A stretch of 64,000 nt of DNA from Magnetococcales bacterium (lineage in GTDB: Bacteria > Pseudomonadota > Magnetococcia > Magnetococcales > JADFYX01), in contig PEAM01000015.1 in NCBI GenBank assembly GCA_002753565.1, forward strand, positions 1 to 64,000. The letters are read 5' to 3'. Both the position numbers and the translations under genes were made by a program. Positions 22,019 to 40,200 of the stretch are shown piece after piece. Positions within the stretch are counted from its first letter, which is position 1. Each line of letters starts with the position of its first letter. The notes beneath the pieces were generated by a model, which searched no databases, was not told the origin of the DNA, and saw nothing but the letters and a program-made list of their open reading frames with translations.

Positions 22019-22539
22019 TCGTCTTCTCGTCAGGGTTGGATCTCACCATCCGGCGAGATGGGTGTTAGATTTAAGAGGCTATAACAGGATTCTCAGCCAG
22101 GATGATCTCCCTGATGGCTTGCAGGTGCGGGTTGTCCACTCCTGACAGGTGTTTCCATTTTTCGTTAGATGTGGGTCAGTCCTCTTTTTAACGGCAGGTA
22201 CCTTCAACCGAGGAAGGTAATCAAACTACCCATTGTTGGCAAGCGTTAATTGCTCAGGCGGCCTCTCTCTTATTGTTTGGAGGAGCCGAAACGGGCCGTT
22301 TTATCAATCGCTATTCTACGATATTGCCAGGTATCCGGTTTACACTCAATCCAGAGGATTAATCCGGGCAGCCCAGGCGCCTTAAACGCCAACAAGCTTA
22401 AGAGTGATGGCTGACAATTGACAACCGAGGGATAATATCGGTAGTTTTGTTGGGGGCTGATCCACTCTCGCAAGACTGGATTGGGTCGTTTCTTGGTTGA
22501 GGTATCTTTGTCCCCATCAGGTTGTTACAGTCAGGCGGT
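22019..22539. other. 521-base gap without a supported gene
   Basis: Divergent intergenic region between the M18 peptidase and the TauE/SafE-type gene. The longest reading frame here (67 codons, minus strand, 22270-22473) has no Shine-Dalgarno or recognisable composition. The region should hold both promoters, but I see no clear -35/-10 pair. A sigma-54-like pair near 22237-22255 has a 12-base instead of 10-base gap and was rejected. Confidence 0.5.
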
Positions 22540-23316
22540 ATGTCGATCTCATCTCAACTCTTTGAGTTTTTGGTTGTTGGACTGCTCAGCGCCATCCACT
22601 GTCTGATCATGTGTGGTGGCATTGTCGGCGCCCTGACCATCAGCCTGCCGATCCAAACCCGGCAGAGTCCCAAAGCCCTGTTTGAAATATTGGCTATCTT
22701 TAGCCTGGGCCGATTGGTAAGTTATGCCCTGGCCGGTTTTTTTGCCGGGCTGTTTGGGGAGCTTTTGGTCAACACCTTCAGCCTTCAAGAGAGCCACAGC
22801 CAGATACTGTATTCGCTGAGTCTCGTGGTGTTGGTCGGTATCGGTCTGCATATTGCGGGCTGGTTCCCGGAGGTGGCTCGGTTGGAGAAAGTGGGGAGCC
22901 GACTATGGAGGTGGATTGAGCCGGTGGCCCAGTCTCTTCTGCCGGTAGAGAGCCGTTTTCAGGCGTTGATTTTGGGGTTTCTTTGGGGGTGGCTTCCGTG
23001 TGGGGTGACCTATTCGGTACTCATCTGGTCTGCTCTGCTGGGGGACTCCCTGTCGGGTGCGTTGGCCATGGGAGCTTTTGGGCTGGGAACCGTGCCGGGG
23101 ATACTCATGGCCAGCTATTTTTCGGGGCGATTTCATCGATATCAGAAAAAAGGGTTGAAAAGAGGGCTGGGAATCCTGATTATACTCCTGGCGCTGATCT
23201 TTGGTTTTTTGTGGAATCCTCACGATTTACATCGGCACGACTTCTCCAACCAACAGGAGACGTGCCCTACGCCAATAGCGACCCATAACCATATGGCTCC
23301 AGAGGTGGTGAAATAG
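22540..23316 (+). CDS. TauE/SafE-family (COG2836-type) membrane protein
   Basis: Small membrane protein with about six helices. Two half-repeats carry HCLIMCGGIVGAL (about residue 18) and GFLWGWLPCGVTYSVL (about residue 150), the Cys-containing motifs of the sulfite-exporter-like/DsbD_2 group that sits near cytochrome oxidase maturation genes and heavy-metal genes. A copper-related role is suggested by the neighbours (PCu(A)C and SCO genes) but not shown. ATG at 22540 has AGGCGGT close upstream; 258 residues. It is followed after one base by the sigma-54 activator gene, so the two are co-transcribed. The C-terminal tail is histidine-rich. Confidence 0.82.
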   Translation: MSISSQLFEFLVVGLLSAIHCLIMCGGIVGALTISLPIQTRQSPKALFEILAIFSLGRLVSYALAGFFAGLFGELLVNTFSLQESHSQILYSLSLVVLVGIGLHIAGWFPEVARLEKVGSRLWRWIEPVAQSLLPVESRFQALILGFLWGWLPCGVTYSVLIWSALLGDSLSGALAMGAFGLGTVPGILMASYFSGRFHRYQKKGLKRGLGILIILLALIFGFLWNPHDLHRHDFSNQQETCPTPIATHNHMAPEVVK

Positions 23317-23317
23317 A

Positions 23318-24280
23318 ATGGATGATCAAAAGCAGTTTTTAGGAGACTCTCCTGAGTTTCTTTCTGTCATTCGGGCCGCCGGGTTGGTGGCGCCAACCGA
23401 TGCAACCGTTCTCATTACCGGTGAATCGGGAACCGGCAAGGAGTTGCTCTCTCGCTATATTCACAACAACAGCCGTCGCCGACAACAGCCTTGGATCACC
23501 ATCAACTGTGCCGCTCTTCCTGAATCTTTGGCTGAGTCGGAGCTTTTTGGCCATGCCAAGGGGGCCTTTACCGGTGCGGCCCTGAATAAAAAAGGCTGGG
23601 TGCAGGCTGCTGATGGCGGCACCCTGTTTTTAGACGAAATCTCAGAGCTCCCGCTCTCTATTCAAGCCAAGCTGCTGCGTTTGTTGGAGTCTGGTGAGTG
23701 CCAGGGGGTAGGCCATGGACAGATTTCCCGTGTAAATGTTCGGGTTGTTGCCGCCACCAACAAACATCTGCCCGATCTGGTTCGGGAGGGGGGCTTTCGT
23801 GAGGATCTTTTCTATCGACTCAATATCGTCCCCCTGACTCTGCCCCCTCTGCGGGACCGCCTTCAAGATCTCTCTTTGCTTATCAACCTGTTCATGGCGC
23901 GGGTTTCCACAAAAAACGCTCTTCCCCAGACCCGTTTTCATCCCAAGGCTTTGGCGGTGCTGCGTGCCTACTCCTGGCCTGGAAATATCCGAGAGTTAAG
24001 AAATTTTTGCGAACGGGTCAGCATTCTAAATGCCGGGCAGACGTTGGTGGTGGATGATCTGCCGGTAGAGATGCGCCAGGGCCAGGATGTGCCTTGGGCC
24101 GGAGAGAGGGCCGCCTTTGTTTTGCCTGACGAAGGCTTGAATTTTTTGCAGATGGAACGGGATCTTCTCGATCAGGCGTTGCGTCGTTCGGCAGGCAATA
24201 AAAGCCGGGCAGCCCGGTTGTTGGGCTTCTCCCGAGACACCTTTCTCTATCGGCTGAAAAAATTTTCCATCCCTGTCTAG
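23318..24280 (+). CDS. Sigma-54-dependent activator without N-terminal sensor domain
   Basis: Bacterial enhancer-binding protein that remodels the sigma-54 holoenzyme by ATP hydrolysis. The AAA+ domain starts almost at residue 1, with Walker A GESGTGKE (35-42), the sigma-54 contacting GAFTGA loop (82-87), Walker B LFLDE (103-107) and an arginine-finger region. The C-terminal Fis-type helix-turn-helix (SAGNKSRAARLLGFSRDTFL) ends at 320. With no receiver, GAF or PAS domain the protein resembles PspF in layout, so control must come from a partner protein or from its own level. Its likely target lies just downstream (24289-24395). Confidence 0.92.
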   Translation: MDDQKQFLGDSPEFLSVIRAAGLVAPTDATVLITGESGTGKELLSRYIHNNSRRRQQPWITINCAALPESLAESELFGHAKGAFTGAALNKKGWVQAADGGTLFLDEISELPLSIQAKLLRLLESGECQGVGHGQISRVNVRVVAATNKHLPDLVREGGFREDLFYRLNIVPLTLPPLRDRLQDLSLLINLFMARVSTKNALPQTRFHPKALAVLRAYSWPGNIRELRNFCERVSILNAGQTLVVDDLPVEMRQGQDVPWAGERAAFVLPDEGLNFLQMERDLLDQALRRSAGNKSRAARLLGFSRDTFLYRLKKFSIPV

Positions 24281-24288
24281 TCTCGAAA

Positions 24289-24329
24289 GTGGGTCACATG
24301 ACCTGTTCAGAGTGTGTCATATAACCCAC
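24289..24329. promoter_or_regulatory. Inverted repeat, candidate enhancer for the upstream activator
   Basis: GTGGGTCACATGAC (24289-24302) and GTCATATAACCCAC (24316-24329) are inverted copies matching at 12 of 14 positions, 13 bases apart. Each half is itself partly palindromic (GGTCA-CA-TGACC). The pair lies about 85 bases before the expected start of the promoter at 24380, a typical place for a sigma-54 activator site. Confidence 0.55.
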
Positions 24330-24379
24330 CATTACCCCTGTCTTTTTTTCAACCTATTGAAATAAAAAAAGAAAACATC

Positions 24380-24395
24380 TGGCACAGATCCTGAT
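24380..24395 (+). promoter_or_regulatory. Possible sigma-54 promoter of the PCu(A)C gene
   Basis: TGGCAC, AGATC, CTGAT: the -24 element is perfect, the -12 element has GA where GC is expected and 3 of 5 matches. Spacing of 10 bases between the key pairs is right. Together with the upstream inverted repeat and the activator gene it is plausible, but the poor -12 box leaves real doubt. A small leader hairpin (GCC..AGTCGGC, about 24410-24430) follows. Confidence 0.45.
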
Positions 24396-24478
24396 AGATA
24401 GGGGTGGATAGCCGATGACTCCTTAGTCGGCATAAACAGCTTTCAATCTACTTAATTCAAGAGGTCTTACTGCGTATC

Positions 24479-25009
24479 ATGCAAACAATTCGATTGACAA
24501 CCCTGTTGACCATGGTCGGTCTTCTGGCTATTGGCGGATGCCAAGCGGCCGCTCAATCCATGGACCACGACAAGATGGAAAAGGGGGGGATGCACGCCGA
24601 ACAGAAGGTGATGGTTCAGCAGCCCTGGGCCAGGGCATCTGCCGGAATGGCTAAAGCAGGTGCGGCCTTTATGACCCTGATGAACCACGGTATGAGCGAT
24701 GACCGCCTGCTTTCTGCCAGTGCCAATGTGTCCGAGCGGGTTGAGTTGCATACCCATCTGATGGATAACGGCGTTATGCGTATGCGTGAAGTTCCCCATA
24801 TCGATCTACCCAAGGGAAAAATGGTCTCTCTTCAACCTGGTGGACTGCATATCATGTTCATGAAGCTGAACAAACCCTTCCAGGAGGGCGACAGCTTTCC
24901 CTTGACCCTTAGGTTTGAAAAAGCTGGAACCGTAGAGATTCAGGTGGTGGTCAAAGGGGTTTCGGCTGGTGGTATGGGTGGTGGTCACATGCAGGGACAC
25001 TCGATGTAG
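24479..25009 (+). CDS. Copper chaperone PCu(A)C, lipoprotein
   Basis: Periplasmic Cu(I) chaperone that delivers copper, usually to the CuA or CuB centre of terminal oxidases. The N-terminus is a lipoprotein signal (LLAIGGC, lipobox at about residues 16-21). The copper-binding pattern is visible as HTHLMDNGVMRMREV followed by PGGLHIMFM. The N- and C-terminal tails are rich in Met and His (MDHDKMEKGGMHAEQ and GGMGGGHMQGHSM), an added metal-binding feature. Length 176 residues. It follows the candidate sigma-54 promoter, with SCO downstream. Confidence 0.92.
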   Translation: MQTIRLTTLLTMVGLLAIGGCQAAAQSMDHDKMEKGGMHAEQKVMVQQPWARASAGMAKAGAAFMTLMNHGMSDDRLLSASANVSERVELHTHLMDNGVMRMREVPHIDLPKGKMVSLQPGGLHIMFMKLNKPFQEGDSFPLTLRFEKAGTVEIQVVVKGVSAGGMGGGHMQGHSM

Positions 25010-25035
25010 TTTTTTTTGCCCAATGATTTTCCCAG

Positions 25036-25084
25036 TGGGCTGTCTTCGCTCTTCCCCCTCCTCAAAAGAGGGCAGCCCTTTTTC
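25036..25084 (+). terminator. First of two tandem hairpins after the PCu(A)C gene
   Basis: GGGCTG and CAGCCC pair around an inner CCCTC/GAGGG stem, followed by TTTTTC. The stem is interrupted on one side, so strength is uncertain. Confidence 0.45.
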
Positions 25085-25086
25085 AT

Positions 25087-25140
25087 CGGTTGGCGTTTTT
25101 TTCACCAATGCCAGAAAAAAGCGCCAACCGATTTTTTTTT
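25087..25140 (+). terminator. Strong terminator-like hairpin between PCu(A)C and SCO genes
   Basis: CGGTTGGCG...TTTTTT and AAAAAA..GCGCCAACCG form an almost perfect stem of about 17 pairs, followed by ATTTTTTTTT. This fits a rho-independent terminator or an attenuator that sets PCu(A)C above SCO. The SCO ATG follows only 13 bases later, so SCO is either expressed by read-through or from a start in the hairpin region. Confidence 0.75.
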
Positions 25141-25152
25141 AGAGTACTAACC

Positions 25153-25767
25153 ATGAATCGTACAGGGATCGTTAACCATCGCCGGGCTTTTTTTCTCTCA
25201 ACCTTTTGGCTGATGGCCTCTCTTCTCTTTGTGTCGGCAGAGGCCGATTGCGGCCCTAAAGATCCCATGCCCCTGCGGGGGAGTTTTTCTTTGGTAGATG
25301 AGACCGGAAAAAAAGTAACCTTGGAGGGTTACCGAGGCCGCTATCTGTTAATCTATTTTGGTTATACCTACTGCCCGGATATCTGTCCCACCAGTTTGGG
25401 TATTATTGGTGAGGTTTTGGACAAGCTCTCCCCGCCGGCATTGGATAAGTTGACGCCTCTGTTTGTAACCGTCGACCCCGAACGGGATACGGTCGAACAT
25501 GTGAATGAGTACACCGATGCTTTTCACCCCAAGCTTATCGGCTTGACCGGTTCGGTTGAAGAGACCAATCGGGCTGCCAAAACCTTTGGCGTCTATTTTG
25601 CCAAGGCCGAGGAAGACCCGGACGATCCGACTGATTATCTGGTAGACCACTCCTCCAACACCTTTTTCCTCGATCCACAGGGGCGAATTGTCACCATTTT
25701 TGGTCATGCACCAGAGGTAGAAGAGGTGGTTCGGAATTTGGAGCAACATCTTGTGGGAGAGAAGTAG
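25153..25767 (+). CDS. SCO1/SenC-type copper and thiol protein
   Basis: Membrane-anchored or secreted thioredoxin-fold protein that matures the CuA site of cytochrome oxidase. The essential motif YCPDICP (Cys about 74 and 78) and the distant His in VDHSSNTFF (about 163) are present, as is FVTVDPERDTV. An N-terminal hydrophobic segment (residues about 12-30) acts as signal or anchor. ATG at 25153 gives 204 residues; a frame opening at 25090 lies inside the terminator. The small secreted protein at 25769 follows by one base. Confidence 0.93.
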   Translation: MNRTGIVNHRRAFFLSTFWLMASLLFVSAEADCGPKDPMPLRGSFSLVDETGKKVTLEGYRGRYLLIYFGYTYCPDICPTSLGIIGEVLDKLSPPALDKLTPLFVTVDPERDTVEHVNEYTDAFHPKLIGLTGSVEETNRAAKTFGVYFAKAEEDPDDPTDYLVDHSSNTFFLDPQGRIVTIFGHAPEVEEVVRNLEQHLVGEK

Positions 25768-25768
25768 G

Positions 25769-26221
25769 GTGCCTCTTTTTTTTCTCTTTGTCGCGTTTGT
25801 GGGTCTCTCTCTTTCTAGCCCACCTCTTCTGGCTGCCACCTCGGTGGAGGCTGAGGAGAGTTTGGCTGTTAAAAGCTACCGACAGTTTGCCACGGCCTTT
25901 ATTCGGGGGGAGCTGGTGGAGGCCAGCCGTTTTGCCGATGGACAGGCGTTGCGCACCGTGCGGCGTAAACAGTATGTGCAGAGCAAGGGGGAGGTTACGG
26001 TTCCCCCGGTTGAGACAGAGATTCTCATCGTTGGTGAAAATCCACAAAAAGGGGGGGTTCAGGTGGATATTCAGGGGGTTCTCCTGGCTCGTCATTCTCT
26101 GCCAGACTCCTCTGAGCTGGAGACCAAGGTCCATCGCCAGACCATTACGATGCTTCATCGTAAGAGCGGCTGGAAAGTGGTCTATTTTATCGATGACCTG
26201 GAAAAATGCTGCCTACCCTGA
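25769..26221 (+). CDS. Small secreted protein of unknown function
   Basis: I do not recognise the family. The 150-residue product has a Sec signal peptide (FFLFVAFVGLSLSSPPLLAA, cleavage near residue 23), then a compact alpha-plus-beta domain of about 125 residues with VHRQTITMLHRKSGWKVVYF near the end, reminiscent of NTF2-like/DUF4878-type folds; a pair of Cys lies at the C-terminus (EKCCLP). GTG at 25769 follows the SCO stop by one base with GAGAG upstream, so it belongs to the same transcript and may take part in copper or oxidase maturation. Confidence 0.7.
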   Translation: MPLFFLFVAFVGLSLSSPPLLAATSVEAEESLAVKSYRQFATAFIRGELVEASRFADGQALRTVRRKQYVQSKGEVTVPPVETEILIVGENPQKGGVQVDIQGVLLARHSLPDSSELETKVHRQTITMLHRKSGWKVVYFIDDLEKCCLP

Positions 26222-26351: not shown

Positions 26352-28976
26352 CTAATAAATCCCTTTGGCATTGAGGAACTGGGCATAGTTTCGGTCATCG
26401 GTGATGAAATGTTCGATGAAGAGGTCGTGAAAAAAGGTTTTAAACTCTTCTTGGCTGATCGCCCTCTTTTTTTCGGCCTTTTTTTGGAATGAGTTCATAT
26501 GGCCCATCAGCTTTTTATGGGTTTCACGATGGCTGCGGAAATCGGGGTAGGCATAACGCTGCATTAAATTTTGTTCCACCGAAAAGTGGTGTTCCGTATA
26601 CTTTATGAGGGTGTTCAAGGCATTTTTAAGGGTGCCTTTGCTGTTTTCGGTACGCAACACCTCCAAGACTCCCCTGGCAATTTCCAGGAGTTTTTTGTGG
26701 TGGGTGTCCATCTCTAGAATCTGGATGCTATAGGTGCTGCTCCAGCGCAGAGAGTCCCGCTCTCCCCCCAGATGGACAGCCTCTGAGGCACGTTTGAGAT
26801 AGGACTCATAGAGTTTCCAGCGGACGATAGGGATATCACCCACCAGCTTACCGGGAATTTGGTAGGTGGTAACCGGATCCAACGCCTCCAGGCGGAACAG
26901 ACAGGTGGTATTGAAGATGGCCGACTCCTCTCCGAAATAGTCTTTGGGCTCGAGAATATCAAGCCGTTTTCCCCTGAGAGACCGAGTTATCCGGCCCGAT
27001 TTGATCAGGTTCAGGTAGGTTAGATCCCGACATGCGATCACCTCGCCTGCTTGAAAGGTTTGTACTTTGATCTCGTCGATAATTTGATTGAAAACCCGAT
27101 AATAGACCCCCTCTGAAAAAAGATTGGTCGACTCCAGAAATGTCCGGTCTTCCCAGGTCTGCTCAATTTTTCCCATCAAATTGTTGCGTTTGATCAGTTC
27201 TCTAAACAGTACAATGGGCATCTCCAAGGCTTTGACGAAACAGGCGGTACTATAGGTAAACTCTGAAGGGATGTCGTATAAGCCCGGTAGATCACCCACC
27301 AGGGTGCCTCCCGAAAGGCGGCTGAAATGGTTTTCGCTGGTGCGGATTTTTTCTACCGCCCCGGTTAAAATCAGATAGATGACCGTGGGCTTTTCTCCCT
27401 CCTTCAGCAGAATGGTGCCGGGGTTGAAATCGACAACCGGGGCATTGATAAGAATGCGCAAATGGTGAAAAGGGATGTTGGGCAGAGCGCTCTCAATAAA
27501 GGAGAAGGCGTTGCGGCGGGCCAGATCTGACTGGCTGGAGATCAGTACATCCACCATGCCGTGAGGTGCGTTGGAGCCGATCTCCTTCTCGGCATAGGTT
27601 AGCTCACGGGCAAGATGGGCAAGAAGGATGCGTTCTGACTTGTCTTGTTTAAAGTCAACAGCCGTGCCGTGTATCATGCCTCCGCCGATATCCAGTTTTT
27701 TCAGGTTGACCGGAGTAAGATATTTGGTCTTGATCTCGTCGAAGTACGCCTGGGAAACACCAGGTTTGCTTGGGTCCGGCTCAATCATCTCCTCTAAAAC
27801 CTTAAGAGAGACAATGTCGGCAAAGTGAGCGTAGCTCTTATACCCCTCTTCCCAGAGGGTGCGAAATAGAAAAACGGTGGTCTCTAACGGGTGGGGAGAG
27901 TAGATCGGCTGTACCTCCAGCCCCTGAACATCGTTCCAAACGTCGGCTTTCAGGTTGTGGATCTCAAAAAAATCTTGGAATCGCTCCTCCTCGATGGAGA
28001 GAAGGGCGGCAATTTTTTTCTCAACCGTTGCCCGAACCGGTGGGGTGGCAAAATATTTAATCTTATGACCTGAGCGCATCAAGGTGGTGATGCCGCAAAA
28101 ATGGTCATCGTGGGCGTGGGTATGAAAAACCCCTTCAATTTCGTTAATGCCAATACCCAGAGCAGAGAGGTTGTTGAACAGGTTGGGGCCGGCGTCGATC
28201 AGATAGATTTTCCCCTGAAACATGATAATGCTGGACATGCTCGGGCGGTTGACATCCCAACCATCTCCCTCCCCGGAGTGGATGACTCCAAAATACTCTC
28301 TGGGTATAAATTGAAAGCTCAGCGGATAGGCCGCTTCGTAGGTCTCTCCCTCATTCAGATTCAGGTCAACGATCACCCGTTTACCCTGAAATTCGAACTC
28401 GTAGATATTAAGGGATTTTCGACGAATAATGACGCCGTTTCTGATCTCGACATCCTTATCCTTGACGGTGCAGGTATCGAGAAGGTCCTGGCTGGGCCGG
28501 ATGGTCCCGAAGGCAAAGCGGAGCTTGATACGCATCATCTCCTCCGCCCGTTTTCGGCCTTCCCCGGTCATCATGATCTCCTCTTTGGAGACCAGACCGT
28601 AATTGCCACGGTAGATATACTGCATCTGGGCGTTGATCTGTTCTCCCAAGCCAATGAGAAGCGGTTTTTGACCGGTATTGTTGGGATGGTTGGGGAGGAT
28701 CAGCCCTTGTTTGTAGAGCATCTGTAAAACGGGAAATTCACCCAGGTTTGAAAACTCGCCGTTTTGCAGCATGACATCGGAAAGCAAAATGGCGTTGGGG
28801 CCGGTCTCAAAGGGTACACCCTCTCGCTCGGTTTGGGTGATCAGACCTCTTTTCATCAGGTGCTTGACACAATCCATCGGACAGCCGCACAGCACTCTAA
28901 GATCAGCATCGGGAAACTCAACCCAGAAGAGACCGCGTGCTACGGAGATTTTCTTGATTATCTCTTGGTCTGCCAT
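26352..28976 (-). CDS. Multidomain sensor: metallo-beta-lactamase fold, two cNMP-binding domains, C-terminal hemerythrin
   Basis: 874 residues. After an N-terminal region with a CGCPMDC cluster (about 30-37) and an unassigned segment to about 230, a metallo-beta-lactamase fold has LIDAGPN and the metal motif HTHAHDDH (about 285-292). Two cyclic-nucleotide-binding beta-rolls follow (about 505-605 and 625-715; FNPGTILLKEGEKP, GTLVGDLPG, then FQAGEVIACRD). The C-terminus (about 745-874) is a bacteriohemerythrin with all diiron ligands: HHKK, HHFSVEQ, SHRETH and EHFITDD. No membrane segment. Likely a cytoplasmic sensor tying O2 or NO binding to nucleotide state; the hydrolase substrate is unknown. 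ATG at 28976 fits AGG spacing better than GTG at 28985. Confidence 0.88.
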   Translation of the reverse strand: MADQEIIKKISVARGLFWVEFPDADLRVLCGCPMDCVKHLMKRGLITQTEREGVPFETGPNAILLSDVMLQNGEFSNLGEFPVLQMLYKQGLILPNHPNNTGQKPLLIGLGEQINAQMQYIYRGNYGLVSKEEIMMTGEGRKRAEEMMRIKLRFAFGTIRPSQDLLDTCTVKDKDVEIRNGVIIRRKSLNIYEFEFQGKRVIVDLNLNEGETYEAAYPLSFQFIPREYFGVIHSGEGDGWDVNRPSMSSIIMFQGKIYLIDAGPNLFNNLSALGIGINEIEGVFHTHAHDDHFCGITTLMRSGHKIKYFATPPVRATVEKKIAALLSIEEERFQDFFEIHNLKADVWNDVQGLEVQPIYSPHPLETTVFLFRTLWEEGYKSYAHFADIVSLKVLEEMIEPDPSKPGVSQAYFDEIKTKYLTPVNLKKLDIGGGMIHGTAVDFKQDKSERILLAHLARELTYAEKEIGSNAPHGMVDVLISSQSDLARRNAFSFIESALPNIPFHHLRILINAPVVDFNPGTILLKEGEKPTVIYLILTGAVEKIRTSENHFSRLSGGTLVGDLPGLYDIPSEFTYSTACFVKALEMPIVLFRELIKRNNLMGKIEQTWEDRTFLESTNLFSEGVYYRVFNQIIDEIKVQTFQAGEVIACRDLTYLNLIKSGRITRSLRGKRLDILEPKDYFGEESAIFNTTCLFRLEALDPVTTYQIPGKLVGDIPIVRWKLYESYLKRASEAVHLGGERDSLRWSSTYSIQILEMDTHHKKLLEIARGVLEVLRTENSKGTLKNALNTLIKYTEHHFSVEQNLMQRYAYPDFRSHRETHKKLMGHMNSFQKKAEKKRAISQEEFKTFFHDLFIEHFITDDRNYAQFLNAKGIY

Positions 28977-29265
28977 CTCTTTCACCTCACGATCTGCTCA
29001 TTCAATTAGAAAAAGATATATCCGATAATGATTACTGACTTATATTTTATCTTGAGAACTAAGTTACCATCTTTTAAGTGGATATTTCAACCTGAAGCAG
29101 GAAAAGAGGAGAGAGATAAATGGGATATCTGTTGTTTGAGGTGGGATCGTGGGAGCCTGTTGATTGTGGTTGTGGGGGCTCGAAACCAGCCAGGGTAGGG
29201 TCATGAAGGGGCGGTTGGTCAGTTTTTGATGTTCGATAATATGATTATTGTAAGTTAAAAATGGT

Positions 29266-29652
29266 CTACTGCCGGCTCCATGCATCTCTCACCGTCTGGG
29301 CAAGGGTCATGGGGTCAAACGGTTTTGTGATAACCTCCAAGGCGCCGATCTCCTTATAAAAAGAGACCTCTTGAGGCTGGACTTTGGCGGTCATGAAGAT
29401 AACCGGTATGGTCTCCATTCCTGGTATCTGACGGATTTTTTGAAACGCTGTCGGACCATCCATACCCGGCATCATGACATCAAACAGCAACAGGTCCGGT
29501 TGATACTCAACCACCGCATCAACAGCCTCCTGACCGGTGTTGCAGACCTTCAGTTCAAATTCACCAATCACCTCCAGAGCCAGGGTTGCCACCTCTTGGA
29601 TATCGGGTTCGTCTTCTGCATAGACTATTCTATTCAAAGGTTTGGCTGTCAT
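29266..29652 (-). CDS. Single-domain response regulator (CheY-like receiver)
   Basis: 128 residues, receiver only: acidic pocket in IVYAEDEPD, phosphoacceptor Asp in LLLFDVMMPGMDG (about residue 54), Thr/Ser in FMTAKV and Lys in VITKPF. There is no output domain, so it acts through protein contact or as a phosphorelay carrier. The ATG at 29652 has GGAGAG upstream; an upstream ATG gives nine extra residues. It lies between the hemerythrin fusion and the VOC protein gene and may receive phosphate from the hybrid kinase at 31617. Confidence 0.92.
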   Translation of the reverse strand: MTAKPLNRIVYAEDEPDIQEVATLALEVIGEFELKVCNTGQEAVDAVVEYQPDLLLFDVMMPGMDGPTAFQKIRQIPGMETIPVIFMTAKVQPQEVSFYKEIGALEVITKPFDPMTLAQTVRDAWSRQ

Positions 29653-29752
29653 GCTGTCTCTCCAAAAAAAAATTATCACGCATCGGATAGCTCACCAGCA
29701 GCAGTTTAGCAAATTGATGGGACAATACCCTCGAAAAAAGAGTGTAGAGGCG

Positions 29753-30323: not shown

Positions 30324-31487
30324 CTATCGGCTAAAACCGATGATACAGACATCATCTCGTCTTTTCTCTTCTCCCTGGTAGGTCAATAAGGTCTGATAGA
30401 GCTGTTGGCCGACCTCCGCCATGGGGTGCTCTTTCAGAGTGGTGAGTGCCTCAAGCAAACGTTTTTTGCCAAATCCACGCCGTTTTTCTCCGCCGATTTG
30501 ATCGATCATGCCATCACTGCTCATAAAAAAACGCCGTTGATCAGGGGTGTCGATTTGGTGGTTTGTAAAAAGGGTGTCTGCCTCTATGCGACGATAGCCG
30601 ATCCCCTTTTTATCCCCTTTTATTTCAACGATCTCTTGATCCTTGTCCTGATAAAACAGGGAAAAACGGGCGCCGGAGAAGATAAGGTGATTGGTGTCGT
30701 CAGGCAGAAAGCAGGCGCCCAGCTCCAGCCCATCATCCGATTCACCCTCTGAGGTGTCTTGATTGAGCAGGTGTTGAATACCCTTGTGCATCCGGGAGAT
30801 GATTTGTGCCGGATCGTTGGCGGAATATTGTTGCAGCGCCTGATCTAGAACACCGTTGGCGATCAGGGTCATGAAGGCGCCGGGAACCCCGTGACCGGTA
30901 CAGTCTCCCAAGATAATCAAGAGACCCTCGTCGGTTGGTCGACACCAATAGAGATCTCCTCCCACCACATCCCGAGGCTCCCATAGCACAAAATGGTTGG
31001 GGAGCCTCTGCTCAAGGAGAGAGGCGGGGGGAAGGATGGCGCCCTGGATTCGTCTGGCGTAGCGAATGCTCTCCATCACCAGACTGTTGGTGGCATCGAG
31101 CTTTTTATAGGCCAGACGAAGGGCCAGATGGGTTTTGACCCGCTCTTTGAGAATGGGTGGGCTGATGGGTTTGATGATATAATCTACAGCCCCCAACTCC
31201 AGCCCTTTTTGTTCATCTTCCACCTGCACTTTTGCCGTAACAAAGATGATGGGGATTTCGGCGGTGGAGGGGTCGGCCTTGAGCTGTCGACACACTTCAT
31301 AACCATCCATTTCCGGCATCATGATATCCAGCAGGATCATGTCTGGCTTGGGGGTGCTTTGGGCGATGCGCAGGGCGCGCTGACCGTTGAGAGCCGCTTT
31401 TACTTTATACTCTTTGACCAGAATACTACCAAGAACATCCAAATTTTCAGGGGTATCATCGACAATCATGATTAATGGCTTCGCCAT
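30324..31487 (-). CDS. Response regulator with SpoIIE/RsbU-type PP2C phosphatase output
   Basis: Receiver domain at about residues 5-120 (IVDDTPEN; phospho-Asp in MILLDIMMPEMDG; Lys in YIIKPI), a short coiled linker, then a PPM/SpoIIE phosphatase domain from about 150 to 387 with DVVGGDLYW, GDCTGHGVPGAFMTL and FFMSSDGMID carrying the metal Asp residues. Such proteins dephosphorylate anti-sigma antagonists in partner-switching pathways; no STAS or anti-sigma gene is nearby. A good GGAGAG element precedes the ATG. A 17-base inverted repeat lies 67 bases upstream. Confidence 0.92.
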   Translation of the reverse strand: MAKPLIMIVDDTPENLDVLGSILVKEYKVKAALNGQRALRIAQSTPKPDMILLDIMMPEMDGYEVCRQLKADPSTAEIPIIFVTAKVQVEDEQKGLELGAVDYIIKPISPPILKERVKTHLALRLAYKKLDATNSLVMESIRYARRIQGAILPPASLLEQRLPNHFVLWEPRDVVGGDLYWCRPTDEGLLIILGDCTGHGVPGAFMTLIANGVLDQALQQYSANDPAQIISRMHKGIQHLLNQDTSEGESDDGLELGACFLPDDTNHLIFSGARFSLFYQDKDQEIVEIKGDKKGIGYRRIEADTLFTNHQIDTPDQRRFFMSSDGMIDQIGGEKRRGFGKKRLLEALTTLKEHPMAEVGQQLYQTLLTYQGEEKRRDDVCIIGFSR

Positions 31488-31616: not shown

Positions 31617-33887
31617 CTAGCTTATGGATTCGGTGGGTTCGCTCTGTTTGACAAGAGGTTTTTGTGGCACGAATTGAGCAATCAGCTCCAGCAGTTTTTT
31701 CTTTCTGATTGGCTTGGTAAGGTGCAGATTACAGCCGGCCTCTTGGATTTTTTCCGACTCTTCTTTTAAAGCATGGGCGGTGAGGGCCAGAATGGGGGTG
31801 GGTTTTTGGTTGTTGGCCTGCTCCCAGGCACGAATCTGGCGGGTGGCCTCCAGACCATCCATGATGGGCATCTGGATATCCATCAAGACCATGTCAAACG
31901 CAAACGCCTTAAACTTCTCAACCGCCTCCAGGCCATTTTTTGCCAACACAAGATGGATGGTCGTATGGCTGAGGTAGGCCTGAATGACCCATTGGTTATC
32001 TTGATTGTCCTCAACCAACAATAGCGTCACCCCTGATGATTCTGTCTTTTCACTTTCCAAGCTCTCCAGGGGTGTCGGAAGGAGGTCCGCTGTTCTTGTG
32101 GGTGGGGAGTGCCTTGGGGAGCCGGCCTTGAAAGGGGCAGAGAAGATAAAAGAGCTGCCTTGGCCTGGTTTGCTCTCCAAAAGAATGGTGCCTTTCATCA
32201 GTTGGGCCAGACGCTGACAGATGTTCAAGCCCAGGCCGCTGCCTCCATAGCGTCGGGTGGTCGAGTTGTCCCCTTGGGTAAAAGCCTGAAAAATCTTCTC
32301 TTGAATCGATTTGGAGATTCCGGGGCCGGTATCGGAGACCACAAACTCAATCCAGTCCCCCTTACCCTCTTGAACCCGAAGAGAGACCTCCCCTTTTTCG
32401 GTAAATTTGATGGCATTACCAATCAGGTTGACCAAAACCTGCCGCAGTCTGTTGGCATCTCCTTCCACAAGTGAGGGGAGATTATCGTCCCACTGCCAGG
32501 TGAGTGAAATGCCCTTTTCTTCTGCAGAGTAGAGAAACAGCTCAATGATCTCATCCATGACACGGTGGAGGTCAAACAGGGTCTGATCCAGGAGCAGTTG
32601 ACCCGCTTCAATTTTAGAGAGGTCGAGAATGTCGTTGATGAGAGCCAGCAGCGTCTCTCCTGAACGGTTGATGGTCTTGACATAGATCTCCTGTTTGGCT
32701 GTCAAGGGGGTCTCTTCCAGCAGTTCGCTCATCCCCAGGATGGCGTTCATGGGGGTGCGGATTTCATGGCTCATGGTGGCAAGAAATTCACTTTTGGCAA
32801 GGGTGGCCTGCAGCGCTTTTTTGTTGGCCTCTTTTAACACCCGGTTAAGACGCAAAATAGAATAGTGCCGGTAGAGCAGGAATAGGCTGATCAGTACAAA
32901 AGCCAGAATAATTTTGAAAAGTAGCTTATAGTCAAGTTGATGGTCGATCTTCAAATTGGCCCAGCGGGCTGTGATGGTGAGCTTGTCTTGGTCGGTGAGG
33001 GTATGGATGGCTTTGTTGAACAGAGCAATCAGCCGCTCTTTACCCTTGAGGGTGGTAAGATGAAAGTGATTGGAAAATTCGAGCTGTCCCGCAATTTTGA
33101 TGCCGTTGATTCCCGCCTGTTGGGCGGCATATCGGATGGCTGGAATGGTGTCTAAGAAGGCGAAAATCTCCTTATCTGCCAATAGTTGCAAACCCTCTTG
33201 AATATTTTCAGTTTCGATGATCAGAGCCTCTCTGTTTAGCTCTCTAACCCGATCAACCAGATAATTTCCCCGCACAATACCCAGCGGTTGATCGAGGATC
33301 AGGTTGAAATCGGCGATGAAAAGTTCGGTATCGCGGGCGGCAATCGCGCCATAGGTTTGATAGTAGGGTTGTGAAAAGAGCATCACTTTCTCACGGGCCT
33401 CGCTATGAGCGGCCGCAGAGAGGGCGGTGCATTGGCCCAGAAAAAACTTTTTCTTGGACTCCTCCCAGTTTTTGGTGTGAACCAGCTTGAACTCAATGCC
33501 CAGTCGGATTCCGATAAGACGGACAAAATCTGCTGCGATACCTTCATGTTGACCAATATTATTGATCCGCTCAAAGGGCATCCAGTCTGGATCGACACAG
33601 AGGGTGACAGGACCCCTCTGTGCAAGAAAAGCGCGCTCTTCTTGGCTGAGAAGCAGCTCAGTTTTGGGGGTAATACGCTCTGCCCAGGCGCTGCTCAACA
33701 GAGGGGAGGCAGAGCTGTTCGGGCTTTTGTCTGCTGGGCTGGCAATGCCTGGGGTGCAGAGGGCGGATATCAGGAAGAGGAGGGCAGCCCATGACAGAAT
33801 GGGAAGGTGGCAACCTGCCTCTCGCTCTACCCTGCAACGGGTGGGGCGAAATTTAAGAAACAGCCAGCTTTCTGCTCTATTACTCAT
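31617..33887 (-). CDS. Hybrid sensor histidine kinase with periplasmic solute-binding domain
   Basis: 756 residues. An N-terminal signal or anchor helix (about 27-47) precedes a periplasmic SBP_bac_3-type domain (about 90-310, with WMPFERINNIGQHEGIAADF) as in BvgS/EvgS-type kinases. A membrane helix (about 320-340) leads to a HisKA domain with the phospho-His in ATMSHEIRTPMNAIL, then HATPase with NLIGNAIKFTEKG, SDTGPGI and GGSGLGL. A C-terminal receiver has VEDNQDNQ, MVLMDIQMPIMDG and LTKPI. No HPt domain is present. The ligand is a small periplasmic solute such as an amino acid, by family. It lies upstream of the PP2C response-regulator gene, a probable partner. Confidence 0.94.
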   Translation of the reverse strand: MSNRAESWLFLKFRPTRCRVEREAGCHLPILSWAALLFLISALCTPGIASPADKSPNSSASPLLSSAWAERITPKTELLLSQEERAFLAQRGPVTLCVDPDWMPFERINNIGQHEGIAADFVRLIGIRLGIEFKLVHTKNWEESKKKFFLGQCTALSAAAHSEAREKVMLFSQPYYQTYGAIAARDTELFIADFNLILDQPLGIVRGNYLVDRVRELNREALIIETENIQEGLQLLADKEIFAFLDTIPAIRYAAQQAGINGIKIAGQLEFSNHFHLTTLKGKERLIALFNKAIHTLTDQDKLTITARWANLKIDHQLDYKLLFKIILAFVLISLFLLYRHYSILRLNRVLKEANKKALQATLAKSEFLATMSHEIRTPMNAILGMSELLEETPLTAKQEIYVKTINRSGETLLALINDILDLSKIEAGQLLLDQTLFDLHRVMDEIIELFLYSAEEKGISLTWQWDDNLPSLVEGDANRLRQVLVNLIGNAIKFTEKGEVSLRVQEGKGDWIEFVVSDTGPGISKSIQEKIFQAFTQGDNSTTRRYGGSGLGLNICQRLAQLMKGTILLESKPGQGSSFIFSAPFKAGSPRHSPPTRTADLLPTPLESLESEKTESSGVTLLLVEDNQDNQWVIQAYLSHTTIHLVLAKNGLEAVEKFKAFAFDMVLMDIQMPIMDGLEATRQIRAWEQANNQKPTPILALTAHALKEESEKIQEAGCNLHLTKPIRKKKLLELIAQFVPQKPLVKQSEPTESIS

Positions 33888-34242
33888 TTGCAAACCGAAA
33901 AAGAGGGGGTTCTATCAAAAGATAAATAGATGTTAACGTAGTTTTTAGAAGATTACCATTCTTAACTTTTTCTCTACTGGTACCAAACGCTCTCAGGCTG
34001 AGATCCGATCGATCTGCTCTCTGTGAGAGGGTGGCAAGGAAAAGATGGGGTGTGGAAGCCGAAGCCGTACAGACGAACTGTTACAATTTAATACAATTTC
34101 ATCAGGTTGCTTGTCCCTTCCTGACGGTGCAAAGTAAAAAAAATAGCTCGAAAAAAATAGAAAAATAGTGTCTAATGAAAGCTGTTGCCCCGTGCCGTAC
34201 AATCGGCTTTTTTAAGCTGGAACGCCAAGACAGGTTATAAAA
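33888..34242. other. 355-base divergent intergenic region
   Basis: It separates the hybrid kinase gene from the giant surface-protein gene and should hold both promoters. Stretches near 34080-34105 and 34125-34160 are AT-rich. A short stem GCCG/CGGC before a T-run (about 34194-34212) is a weak terminator-like element just before the surface-protein leader. No open reading frame with a ribosome site was seen. Confidence 0.45.
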
Positions 34243-37200
34243 ATGAAAAGAGAGGTGGGTTCTCAAACCTCCGGGCCATTTGAAATGTACACCTATGCCC
34301 TGGATGCTGTTGGCTTGGAGAGCCTGGTCATACCAGGTGGACACCTTCTTCTGCGTGCCGATTTTTTCCGTCTGGGAGACGACCTTATCTTGCGTGGATC
34401 AGGAGAGGAGGCCGGGCAGTCGGTTCGGGTCACCTCCTACTTTTCACAACCCAACCCCCCCACACTACAGACCGTTTCTGGCGCGCAAATTTCTGCTGAC
34501 CTTGCTGCCCACCTTGCGGGTCCGGTTGCTCCGGGGATGGAGGTGATGGCAGGGGGTGAGGGGGTAGATTCGACTGCCATCGGTTATGTTGAAACCCTGG
34601 TTGGTGAGGTGGTTGTCGTTCGATCGGGGCTGAAACTGGTTGCCGAAAAAGGGATGGCCCTCCAGGAAGGGGACCGGCTCGAAACCGGAGAAGAGGGTCG
34701 TGTGGGGCTGGTCTATGGAGATGATACGACAGTTTCGTTGGGTGGCAACGGGCGGATGGTCATCGAAGAGATGTCCTACGATCCCGCCGCAGGTGTGGGG
34801 CGCTCTTCTACCACTGTTGTTCAAGGTACCTTCTCATTTGTCAGTGGTGGTGTGGCCAAACTGGGAGAGGAGGCCATGGTTTTTAAAACCCCGGTTGCCC
34901 AGATTGGTGTTCGCGGCACGACGGTGGCGGGTACCGCCGGTGCAGAAGGGAGTGAGAACAGCTTTACCCTTCTTCAAGATGCCGACGGAGGAGTCGGCTC
35001 CATTTCGGTCACCAATAGTGCCGGAACCCAACTGCTCAGCCAGCCCAATCAGACCACAACCGTCACCAGCTTTTTTGTCTCTCCGGTTAAACCGTTCCTC
35101 ATCTCTTCCGCACAAGTGGAGCAGCACTATGGGGCCACCATCCAGGCCCGCCCCACCCCTTCTCGGCGCAGTAGGGAGTCGGAGGATAGCAGGGAGGAAG
35201 ACGCGGAGGCACAAGACGAGGGAGAGGGGGAGCCTGTAGAAGAACAACCCCCCGAAAAAGAAGAGGAGAAAGCGCAGAACACAGCGGGTGAGGGGGAAGA
35301 GGGTCCAGGTGAAGGGGAGGAAGAGCAAGAGCAGGAGAAAAAGCCCTCTGACGGGGAGGGGAAACCCCAGCCAGAGGGGGATGACGAAGAGCGGCAGAGC
35401 CCCCCTTTCGATGGCGAAGGGTTGGCCGATGAGCCAGACAAACCAGAGATGGAGAGCCCAAAACGGAGGCTCCAGCAAGAGGGAGAGGGCAGGGAGGGGC
35501 GCGATGATCTTGCCCCCAAGTTGCCGTTAACTGAAGGTCAGGAGATGCCCCCTGGTGAAGGGGCGCTCTCGGATGGTGGCCCGCTTTCTGGTCTGAACTT
35601 AACCACCAAGCCCAACGTTCCGGCTGGGGATCAGCCCGATGGGCCGCCCCCGCCCGGTAGCCCTGTTTTCTCTCCTGGCAAGACATGGAGTGGCGAGATG
35701 CCCCCCTTGGGGCCGGCCGGAAGCCAAGAGAAAGGTTACTCCTTTCAGGTAAACCCGGCGGGTGGCAGCGAGATCGACCTAACCCCCCAGAGCTTCTCTG
35801 CACCGGAGCGACCACCTCTTAACCAGTCGTCTCAACCCATATCCCAACCCAGTCGGGACGATGGAGGGGGGTATGGAGAGGAAAATCCAAAGCCAGCTCT
35901 GACCTCGGAACCCGTTCTGGACGCCACATCCGAACCCACCCCCACACCAACCGCTCAACCCGCCCTGCCCACCAAGGGTAGTGCGATTGATGGTTACATC
36001 AAAAATGCTCTGGTTTTTGCCGATGCGGACAATGATGGGGTGTTGGATGGAAGCGAAAACCATACTCAAACCGATGATAACGGCGATTTTTCTCTGGTGG
36101 CTGGCAACCATCCTCTTGTGGTCAAGGGAGGCATCGATATCTCTACCGGCCTCTCTTTCACCGGTCTTATGAAGGCTCCCCCTGGGGCGACCATGGTAAC
36201 CCCCTTGACCAGCCTGATGGTTGAGTTGGTCAACGCCGGGGTGGCCTCCTCGGCGGGTGAGGCGGAGTCTATTCTCTCTCATGCCCTGGGTATTCCGGCC
36301 GGTTCTGACTTGCTGCACCTGGACCCGATTCAAGCGGTTAAAAACGGTGATGCCAATGGGCCTCTCATTATGTCGGCCGCCATTCAGGTACAGAATACGG
36401 TGGCCCAGGCTGCGGCTGTTTTGCAAGGGGCAGATTCGCAAACAGATGAGCAGGCCGCCTTTCAGGCTGTGTTTAAGTCCTTGGCCGCCAAGATCCAAAC
36501 CGCCGGCACCAGCATCAACCTCACTGATGCAACTCAGATGGAGGATTTGATTACCCGTGCTGCCAAGGACAGCCTGGGGTTTTCAGGGGATACCCTGACA
36601 AGGGTGGAGTCGGCCATGGGCCATGTCGCCCTGATTATCACCCACTCCAACGGAACCGCCAAGCTTCTCGAGAGCCAGAGCGGGGAGAGCCTGCTTGCCC
36701 AGTTGGCCAAGGTGGCTCATGTGGCTCAGGGGACCGGTTCTGAATGGATACGACAGGCAACCGATCCAGACAATACCAGCTTCAGTTTTGGTGATGGCTC
36801 CGACAGTGGTGTTCTCAACGCCCTGACCCACGGCTTGGGGACTCTGGTCAACGATGCCCAGGTTAACCAATCCGACGGTACCACCAGCACCACCACCGCC
36901 ACCATCACCCCGCCCACCGCCAACTATATTCCCATTGTAACCGGCGTGGTGACAAGCTCCACCCTTGAAGATACCGATCTTTCCGGCCAAACAACGGCAT
37001 CCGACAGTGATGGCGACACCCTGACCTATACGGTTTTGTCCCAAGGCAGCCACGGCAGTGCCACCATCGATGATAGCAGCGGCGCATGGCAGTACACACC
37101 CGATACCGATTACCACGGCACGGACAGCTTTTCAATTCGGGTGGATGATGGCAATCAGGGAAAAGCCACCCAAACCATCCAGCTTACCATCGATAGCGTC

Positions 37201-40200
37201 AACGACGCCCCCACACTGGATATCAGCGCCAGCCCCGCCTTCATTGGCGTTGCCGTTAACGATACCAACCCTTTGGGTATGAGTGTGGCCGATCTGGTTG
37301 TGGACGGCTCTTTTTCGGATGACGATCTGGATTCCGAAAGTATTGCCATCACCTATATCGATAACAGCTTTGGCAGTTGGCAGTTTTCCATTGATGGGGG
37401 TAGCCATTGGGATGTGATGAGCCAAACGGCTGGTGCCGCGGTAGACTTGACCGCTTCAGCCCGATTGTTATCAGCCGACGATCTGCTGCGCTTTGTCTCC
37501 GACGGGGTGACCCCTGGGGATTATTCCCTCCGTTTTCGGGCTTGGGATCAGAGCGTTGGTAGCCCAGGGGAGACCTTGGATGCAAGCTCTACCGGAGGGG
37601 ATACCCCCTTCAGTATCGCCGAAGAGAGTGCAACCATCCATGTGGATGCCAATGGTCAAAACCACCATACCCAGGCAACGGACAGCTCTTGGCACACCGC
37701 CAGCAACTGGTCCATGGGGGTGTTGCCCACCGCCGCCCACGATGTCACTCTCGCTGCCACCGGAACCAGGGTTAGCCATGATGATGGCTCGGTTACCCCT
37801 CTTTTTAGTTTGACGGCCAACGAAGACCTTACCCTCTCCAATGGTGGGGTGTTGGAGATATCCCAAGCCTCCACCATCGCCGCAGGAAAAACCCTTTCAG
37901 TTGAAGAGGGTATCCTCAGAGGGACCGGTTTGCTGAATGTCAGCGGTACCCTTGCCAGCCACGAAGGGACGATATCCCTAGCCACTCATCTGGATGCAGG
38001 TGGAACCTTCAAGGCGAACCAATCTGGTCAGACTATTGCGGTTGAAGGGGCGTTCAGCACCGATGCCAATAGCACGATACTGGTGGGCCAGGGTGGTGGT
38101 GATGCCCATGGCACTCTGACCTTCGCTTCGGGCTTTATTAACGCCGGCACCTTGAAAATAGATAACGATAGCTCAGCCAGCATGAACAGCTCCCTCTCGG
38201 TAACCAGCGGCTCCCTTGCCAACACCGGGACCATCCAATCTCTGGATTCCAACGGCGGTGGTGGCAGCCGAACCCTGACGGCGGATATTCTCAACGGCAT
38301 AGGAGGCACCCTGGATATCGATGCCAACCTGACCCTGGTGGGCAATCTAGAGAGCTCTCTGGGCACCATCGACATCCTTGCCGGTAAAATTTTGACCCTG
38401 AGCGGCACCACCCTGGGGGTTGACGCTGCAACAACCTTGACAGGTGGCGGGACCATCGCCTTGAGTGGCAACTCGACTCTCTCGGTTGGCGCGGGGGGCT
38501 ACACCCATGATACCAGCTTGATCAACCTGAGCCTGGATAGTGGTGCGGTTACCACTACCGGGAGCGGTACCCTCTCTGTTACGGGAGATTGGAACCTTCG
38601 CGGTACCAATGATCGGTTCGATGTGGTGGTGGATAAGTCGGCCACCGGTACTCTTACCCTCCAGGCCAACAACAGCTATGGCGACTCTACCCAGACCTTC
38701 AGTAAGGGGCTGATCAACAGCGGTTCTCTTTCATTGGCAGGGTACAACTATAACGATGTTCTCTTAACAATCGGAGCCGATGCTGTACTCGACAACAGCG
38801 GAACCCTGAGTGTCGACGGGGATTTTTATGGCAGCAAAACCCTTGCCGGTTCGGTGACAAACCGTGGCATCTTGCAACTCAATGGAGACAGCCTGACAAT
38901 AACCAACAGCGACACCACCTTTGACACCACATCGGGCACCATCAACTTAAACAGTGGCTACACCCTCACCATCAACCAAGGTACGGTGCTGTTTGGCGCC
39001 GACACGGTGCTGAGCGGCAGCGGTACCCTCAATTTGACAGGCGCCGTCGATCTGGATCTTGGCAGCGAGGGGTATACCCACAGGGCCACCGCCAGTACCG
39101 ATTTAAGATTGGGTGGTGAGGTGACGGTTAGAGGCAGTGGTGGGCTGACCAATGCGGGTGTTCTTACGCTGCGTGGTGTGGGGGACAGCTTCGAGACCAG
39201 CGTCACCAATCAGGCCGGCACCGGCGTAGCGTTAACCATCCTGGCCAACAACAGCTACGGTCAGACCACCCAAACGTTCAACCAGGGGCTGACCAACGAG
39301 GGTGTACTGAATCTGGACGGCTACACCTATAACAATCTTCTGGTCGACATAGCCAGCGGTCAGGCGCTGGATAACAGCGGCACCCTGTTGGTTGGCGGCG
39401 ATTTTTACGGCAGCAAGAGCATTGTCGGCAAGGTGAACAACAGCGGTACCATTGAACTGAACGGGGACAGCCTCACTGTCAGCAACAGCGGCACCACCTT
39501 TGATACCTCTGACGGCACCATCAACTTAAACAGTGGCTACACCCTCACCATCAACCAAGGTACGGTGCTGTTTGGCGCCGACACGGTGCTGAGCGGCAGC
39601 GGTACCCTCAATTTGACAGGCGCCGTCGATCTGGATCTTGGCAGCGAGGGGTATACCCACAGGGCCACCGCCAGTACCGATTTAAGATTGGGTGGTGAGG
39701 TGACGGTTAGAGGCAGTGGTGGGCTGACCAATGCGGGTGTTCTTACGCTGCGTGGTGTGGGGGACAGCTTCGAGACCAGCGTCACCAATCAGGCCGGCAC
39801 CGGCGTAGCGTTAACCATCCTGGCCAACAACAGCTACGGTCAGACCACCCAAACGTTCAACCAGGGGCTGACCAACGAGGGTGTACTGAATCTGGACGGC
39901 TACACCTATAACAATCTTCTGGTCGACATAGCCAGCGGTCAGGCGCTGGATAACAGCGGCACCCTGTTGGTTGGCGGCGATTTTTACGGCAGCAAGAGCA
40001 TTGTCGGCAAGGTGAACAACAGCGGTACCATTGAACTGAACGGGGATAGCCTCACTGTCAGCAACAGCGGCACCACCTTCGATACCACTGCGGGCAGGTT
40101 GGATGTCGCAAGCTCCCACACCCTCACCCTCAGCGGTGGTACGGTGCAGTTTGGAGCGGGCACCGTACTGAGCGGCAGTGGTACGGTCAATCTGGCCGGC

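Follow-up and report, generated by a model that had tools for sequence, protein, structure and literature searches.

A metallo-beta-lactamase core with tandem CNB domains and exchangeable inputs in Magnetococcia, one version of which carries a bacteriohemerythrin

The window, the whole 64,000-nucleotide stretch of Magnetococcales DNA that was analysed, contains at 26352-28976 on the minus strand a single stop-free frame of 874 codons, which starts at the ATG at 28976, with the GTG at 28985 as another possible start. The encoded protein consists of a family-specific N-terminal domain (N-domain), a metallo-beta-lactamase (MBL) fold, two cNMP-binding-fold (CNB) domains and a bacteriohemerythrin, as shown in Table 1. 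The original prediction of an MBL fold, two cNMP-binding domains and a bacteriohemerythrin in one 874-residue protein is borne out, as each of these parts passes the curated cut-offs of Pfam or NCBIfam. Lactamase_B_2 (PF12706) covers residues 259-362 with 38.3 bits (E 1.4e-9, cut-off 27), and Lactamase_B (PF00753) also lies above its gathering cut-off. Two stretches match cNMP_binding (PF00027) with 57.3 bits over the whole protein and, separately, with scores that both exceed the cut-off of 27.5, while Hemerythrin is above its gathering cut-off at residues 755-853 and the NCBIfam bacteriohemerythrin model NF033749 reaches 95.2 bits (cut-off 84). The complete domain order recurs in orthologues at 55-66% identity, so the fusion is not a chance one. 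No family with this order was described in the literature searched, in agreement with what had been supposed, and as the search fell short of most subscription papers, novelty is not thereby proven.

Table 1. Features of the studied gene and of the genes upstream of it (positions in the window).
Feature	Position	Strand	Basis
Whole gene: N-domain, MBL, CNB, CNB, bacteriohemerythrin, 874 aa	26352..28976	-	open frame; orthologues with the same order
Family-specific N-terminal domain, residues 7-172; motifs CGCP, ETGPNAILLSD, HPNNTG, YIYRGNYGL	28461..28958	-	conservation in 19 diverse members
MBL-fold catalytic domain (predicted), residues 178-500	27477..28445	-	PF12706, PF00753; PDB profile and Foldseek matches
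HAHDDH metal motif (HxHxDH), residues 287-292	28101..28118	-	ligand positions identical in 137/137
First CNB (cNMP-binding fold) domain, residues 515-598; cassette Arg replaced by Ser571	27183..27434	-	PF00027 37.1 bits; PKG alignment; column counts
Second CNB domain, residues 639-710; Glu683 kept, cassette Arg replaced by Cys692	26847..27062	-	PF00027 29.0 bits; PKG alignment; column counts
Helix after second CNB, joins hemerythrin, DIPIVRWKLYESYLKRA, residues 711-742	26751..26846	-	helix in model; IPIVRWKL
Bacteriohemerythrin, residues 743-869, ligands H760 H797 E801 H816 H820 H856 D861	26370..26750	-	NF033749; PDB matches; ligand conservation
Single-domain receiver, upstream	29266-29679	-	
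Glyoxalase-like gene, upstream		same as studied gene	
Receiver-SpoIIE phosphatase, upstream	30324-31487	-	
SBP_bac_3 hybrid histidine kinase, upstream	31617-33893	-	

The intergenic gaps here measure 46-281 bp, and the neighbours of the hemerythrin-version gene were found not to be conserved in the orthologues, so an operon is not claimed; a promoter and terminator scan for operon signals gave results near chance. In other members of the family, modules such as the SBP_bac_3 part of 31617-33893 and the receiver of the adjacent 30324-31487 gene are attached directly to the MBL-CNB core. Convergent with the studied gene, the plus strand at 22522-26221 encodes a DsbD-like membrane protein, a sigma-54 activator, a PCu(A)C copper chaperone and SCO1/SenC, which looks like a cluster for the copper supply of cytochrome oxidase. 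Further along, a 2547-aa secreted-type protein (34243-41886, plus strand) carries RTX repeats with bacterial Ig and cadherin-like domains and contains 579-bp tandem units, a 241-nt stretch being identical between two copies.

The core, which comprises the N-domain, MBL and two CNB domains, was detected in all 48 Magnetococcia genomes examined, with 1 to 6 copies each and often more than one, and a full-length hemerythrin version is present in at least 39 of these genomes; many of the genomes are metagenome-assembled (MAGs), and frames were taken from stop to stop. Outside this group the core occurs in only 7 of the 350 other sampled genomes of the phylum. In the literature searched, the core family is so far undescribed. 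With one genome taken per species, full-length orthologues (55-66% identity) were obtained from Magnetococcales MAGs, Candidatus Magnetaquicoccus inordinatus and one betaproteobacterial MAG, a spirochaete MAG contributed the core alone, and the nearest relatives of the window's protein fall within its own order. Plasmid records gave hemerythrin-level matches only and viral contigs contained no relatives. An assignment to anti-phage defence was rejected, the matches being weak.

The original prediction missed both the N-domain as a defining part of the family and the fusion of the core to other inputs. The N-domain (~175 residues), with 53-70% identity across 19 diverse members, forms together with the MBL active-site region the best conserved part of the family, and no credible Pfam or PDB match was found for it. 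It is always accompanied by the rest of the core, no stand-alone copy being present among 398 genomes of the phylum. Complete members score ~1e-77 or better against the N-domain profile, the weaker matches are all partial copies, and other genomes give nothing down to 1e-4, a gap indicating that the family is sharply bounded. The CGCPMDC string near the N-terminus had been taken for a cluster; the literal string is indeed there, with C30 in 136/137 and C32 in 127/137 members, but C36 is a cysteine in only 8/137, and a conserved CxCx3C metal cluster was therefore rejected. A degenerate MBL half is likewise not claimed for the N-domain, as the basis would be only a similar order of strands and helices and the full-length ELAC2 alignment (below) of a low-confidence model; the profile-profile comparison of the N-domain with the protein's own MBL domain revealed no repeat relationship.

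The HxHxDH motif that had been noted is present as THAHDDH, and the candidate metal and active-site residues H287, H289, D291, H292, H362, H384, D387, H436 and H454 are identical in 137/137 members. Atypical class II phosphodiesterases are defined by a [T/S]HxHxDH motif in the MBL domain (PMC9293780), and THAHDDH together with PF12706 conforms to this definition, the remaining dinuclear ligands being invariant as well. Apyc1, which belongs to the class II phosphodiesterases, cleaves cyclic mononucleotides (cNMPs), as does YhfI (PMC9117128). When the N-domain and MBL were compared with the PDB as one profile, Apyc1 ranked first (E 8.8e-9). With the MBL-only profile, however, arylsulfatase 8gyg came first (E 3.5e-8), slightly ahead of Apyc1 (1.7e-7), which leaves more than one substrate class as a candidate; RNase Z was also among the profile matches. 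The AlphaFold models were built with 8 aligned sequences and have a mean pLDDT of 66-67, the N-domain and residues 422-483 being of low confidence, and a Foldseek search with such a model retrieved PhnP-family, YhfI, arylsulfatase and Apyc1 structures, so that MBL phosphodiesterases are among the matches.

Two other identities of the MBL domain were weighed against these data. Reduction of O2 or NO by a flavo-diiron-like MBL had been hinted at by the original prediction; with the hemerythrin delivering the gas, such a reading would draw on the diiron hemerythrin and on the MBL fold common to flavo-diiron proteins. Flavo-diiron proteins carry an HxExD pattern in this domain. All 137 members have HxHxDH instead, flavodoxin and rubredoxin domains are absent from the Pfam scan, and members without any hemerythrin are common, so a flavo-diiron identity was rejected and a gas-reducing enzyme appears extremely improbable. 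The same modular enzyme might, alternatively, act on a substrate other than a cyclic mononucleotide, such as a sulfate or phosphate ester, a cyclic dinucleotide, RNA or a lactone. The top rank of arylsulfatase with the MBL-only profile speaks for this, as do the matching folds of PhnP-type proteins, RNase Z and RNase J and the alignment of the N-domain and MBL model along its full length to the long RNase Z ELAC2 (8rr1_E, TM 0.50 against ~0.33 for single-domain MBLs). Against it, the RNase Z model TIGR02651 gives 35.8 bits, far under its cut-off of 292.95, by which Ribonuclease Z identity was rejected, and the genome has another frame, of 310 aa, that is RNase Z-like; nucleotide signalling is further favoured by the many cyclases and by the CNB domains standing in tandem. 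Class III cyclases were found in 48/48 genomes, with 2-20 class III cyclase domains per genome and 9 in that of the window. We consider another substrate less likely, yet a reading to be kept in view: motif, solved relatives, tandem CNB domains and cyclases favour a cyclic-mononucleotide phosphodiesterase, with arylsulfatase or other phosphoester substrates as the alternatives.

Among 137 distinct members, domain matching assigned 55 to a version with C-terminal hemerythrin, 34 to one with an N-terminal receiver, 17 to one with an N-terminal SBP_bac_3 part plus a transmembrane segment and 31 to the core alone, where one of the 55 also starts with a receiver and the receiver and core-alone classes each include one truncated copy. 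A single protein (L027 1498-4620) unites receiver, core and hemerythrin. The core tree (FastTree, midpoint root, approximate) splits into two clades, the first with the receiver and SBP versions, the second with the hemerythrin versions, and all SBP versions constitute one group. The hemerythrin labels require 9 changes on the tree vs ~43 in shuffles, a distribution compatible with an early gain of hemerythrin and several losses. Receiver and SBP_bac_3 parts reach the core via coiled-coil-like linkers, 40/52 of which carry an [EAK]RT motif. This motif resembles the ERT signature of the signalling helix, an element that in most cases connects a sensor with a catalytic signalling domain (PMC1592074). 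Directly upstream of the 34 receiver-core genes, on the same strand, a histidine-kinase gene was found in 10 cases and a receiver gene in 11 (the counts overlap). From these exchangeable inputs and upstream kinase or receiver genes, we infer that the core is a signalling output module, and since one core is combined with different inputs, the protein is better read as a member of a family of signalling outputs than as an odd fusion.

MBL-fold sensor domains are known, and the MBL part could in principle be a ligand or metal/redox sensor and no enzyme, leaving the protein as a sensor hub, in keeping with the sensory folds of CNB and hemerythrin. This appears improbable, given that the full HxHxDH set of hydrolase ligands is invariant in 137/137 members and that the core has no other plausible output, though receivers and SBP_bac_3 sensors feed it.

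The expectation that all hemerythrin diiron ligands would be present was confirmed, all seven being found. All 55 hemerythrin-bearing members share H760, E801, H816, H820, H856 and D861, and 51 of the 55 have H797. The latter histidine is replaced in four fused proteins, among them the paralogue L002; the second copy in the window's genome (51% identity) has a cysteine there. The PDB matches of the C-terminal domain are solved bacteriohemerythrins and DcrH. Other arrangements were also observed: elsewhere in the same genome, a 302-aa frame (L006 1468-2373, C76) encodes a small, simpler fusion in which a hemerythrin stands behind a single CNB, and a very long 1581-aa frame (L007, C82) has two tandem hemerythrin domains. 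In a genome of the same genus (G009, L061 4580-7197), the hemerythrin part is detached from the core and lies in a frame of its own that overlaps it, through a frameshift or an assembly error. The hemerythrin might be a passive O2- or iron-handling passenger, with true signalling confined to the receiver and SBP versions, in line with the many other hemerythrin domains in the genome and lineage (PMC2556348) and with the diiron histidine missing from four fused copies. The other six ligands, however, are kept throughout, and the fused hemerythrins fall together in one group (support 84), distinct from the six further hemerythrins that served as a small outgroup set, which leaves a passenger unlikely. 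The hemerythrin is the likely input for O2 or redox state.

The CNB domains are atypical. Alignment with the PKG of Plasmodium places Ser571 and Cys692 at the position of the phosphate-binding arginine in the first and second domain, respectively. Arginine occupies this cassette column in 9/137 members for the first CNB and 15/137 for the second, while the cassette glutamate is kept in 71/137 and 131/137, respectively. Because the cassette arginine is mostly lost, canonical cNMP binding by these pockets is unlikely in most members. In fold searches with the model, the best matches of the tandem CNB region were PKA regulatory subunits, those of the whole model were the tandem CNB regulatory regions of PKA and PKG, and the top matches include Trypanosome PKA regulatory subunits solved with nucleosides, which hints that the CNB domains might have another ligand. 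The helix that follows the second CNB carries IPIVRWKL in members both with and without hemerythrin.

Taken together, we consider that there is about an even chance that the protein is a modular signalling enzyme whose core is an atypical class II-type (MBL) phosphodiesterase, probably for a cyclic mononucleotide, gated by the redox or O2 state of the diiron centre, the functional part of this account being drawn from sequence. The output would be the core, with hydrolysis of a cyclic mononucleotide or other cyclic phosphate as the most likely reaction, at a dinuclear metal centre that H287, H289, D291, H292, H362, D387 and H454 would hold. The tandem CNB after the MBL would serve as the relay; instead of cNMP, its atypical pockets may bind a nucleoside, or they may have no ligand at all. 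In the 874-aa version, the C-terminal bacteriohemerythrin would be the input through its attachment to the helix after the second CNB, and a change between the diferrous and the O2-bound or oxidised state would shift that helix, then the CNB pair, then the hydrolase activity. In other members the input would come from a receiver that can be phosphorylated or from an SBP_bac_3 sensor in the periplasm, linked by the signalling helix to the N-domain. The sequences themselves show the domains, the conserved ligands, the exchange of inputs and the distribution, whereas substrate, direction of control and relay path are the conjectural parts of this explanation. The slightly better score of arylsulfatase with the MBL-only profile, the missing neighbour conservation of the hemerythrin-version gene, the low confidence of the N-domain model and the replacement of H797 in four fused proteins count against it. 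The cytoplasmic gas or redox sensor linked to a nucleotide-dependent hydrolase that was originally envisaged stands in so far as a multidomain, probably soluble sensor-enzyme with a likely O2/redox input and a probable catalytic MBL part is indicated; its nucleotide dependence is doubtful, given Ser571 and Cys692.

Magnetococcia position themselves at the O2 gradient, and the link of O2 or redox state to second messengers is little known there. The family is a direct candidate for such a link: a single polypeptide holds both a conserved MBL site and a conserved diiron site, and the genomes have cyclases. Its receiver-core members suggest that the output of a response regulator can be a predicted MBL hydrolase, and the N-domain that defines the family is conserved and without assigned function. 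Tentatively, and with less confidence than in the enzyme itself, the family might represent a lineage-defining, undescribed output module that consists of the N-domain, an MBL hydrolase and an atypical tandem CNB, is shared by all Magnetococcia and is connected to hemerythrin, two-component receiver or periplasmic SBP_bac_3 inputs. The protein would then be the first cyclic-mononucleotide phosphodiesterase gated by a hemerythrin, the O2 sensing of magneto-aerotactic bacteria would include a cNMP arm, and the CNB domains would have been repurposed for a different ligand.

Compared with known systems, the atypical class II phosphodiesterases Rv1339, C. glutamicum CpdA, YhfI and Apyc1 share the PF12706-type MBL and [T/S]HxHxDH (PMC9293780, PMC9117128), Apyc1 being among the best solved relatives by profile; they are, however, stand-alone enzymes without CNB or sensor domains, and their identity to the 874-aa protein is low. 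In the receiver and SBP versions, the core resembles the output module of a two-component or one-component system. Two tandem CNB domains are also present in the regulatory regions of PKA and PKG, but these belong to eukaryotic kinases and have a canonical phosphate-binding cassette. A C-terminal sensory hemerythrin is also found in DcrH and other chimeric bacteriohemerythrins, whose partners are chemoreceptor, GGDEF, kinase or CheY-like parts, with no MBL partner listed (PMC2556348). In Bhr-HD-GYP of Ferrovum sp., a bacteriohemerythrin is joined to a redox-dependent phosphodiesterase that is active in the reduced hemerythrin form and was named the only known hemerythrin phosphodiesterase in 2022 (PMC8846402, PMC9388753); by analogy, a similar switch, in either direction, may operate in the 874-aa protein. 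Bhr-HD-GYP differs in that its HD-GYP acts on c-di-GMP, its hemerythrin is N-terminal and it has no CNB, so the present protein, if a cNMP phosphodiesterase, would be a second kind of hemerythrin-controlled phosphodiesterase. In layout as described, the core is similar to Dictyostelium GbpA/GbpB, intracellular proteins that carry two CNB domains behind an MBL catalytic domain and share the cell with nucleotide cyclases; in them, cNMP binding activates the phosphodiesterase (PMC11988041). The MBL-CNB-CNB order is the same in both, but the descriptions of GbpA/GbpB mention neither a hemerythrin nor a receiver or SBP_bac_3 part, and the bacterial family has its own N-domain and CNB pockets mostly without the cassette arginine (S571 and C692 here) that activation of the GbpA/GbpB kind would need, which counts against the preferred explanation in that form. 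If the core does hydrolyse cNMPs, it would be a bacterial counterpart of this Dictyostelium layout.
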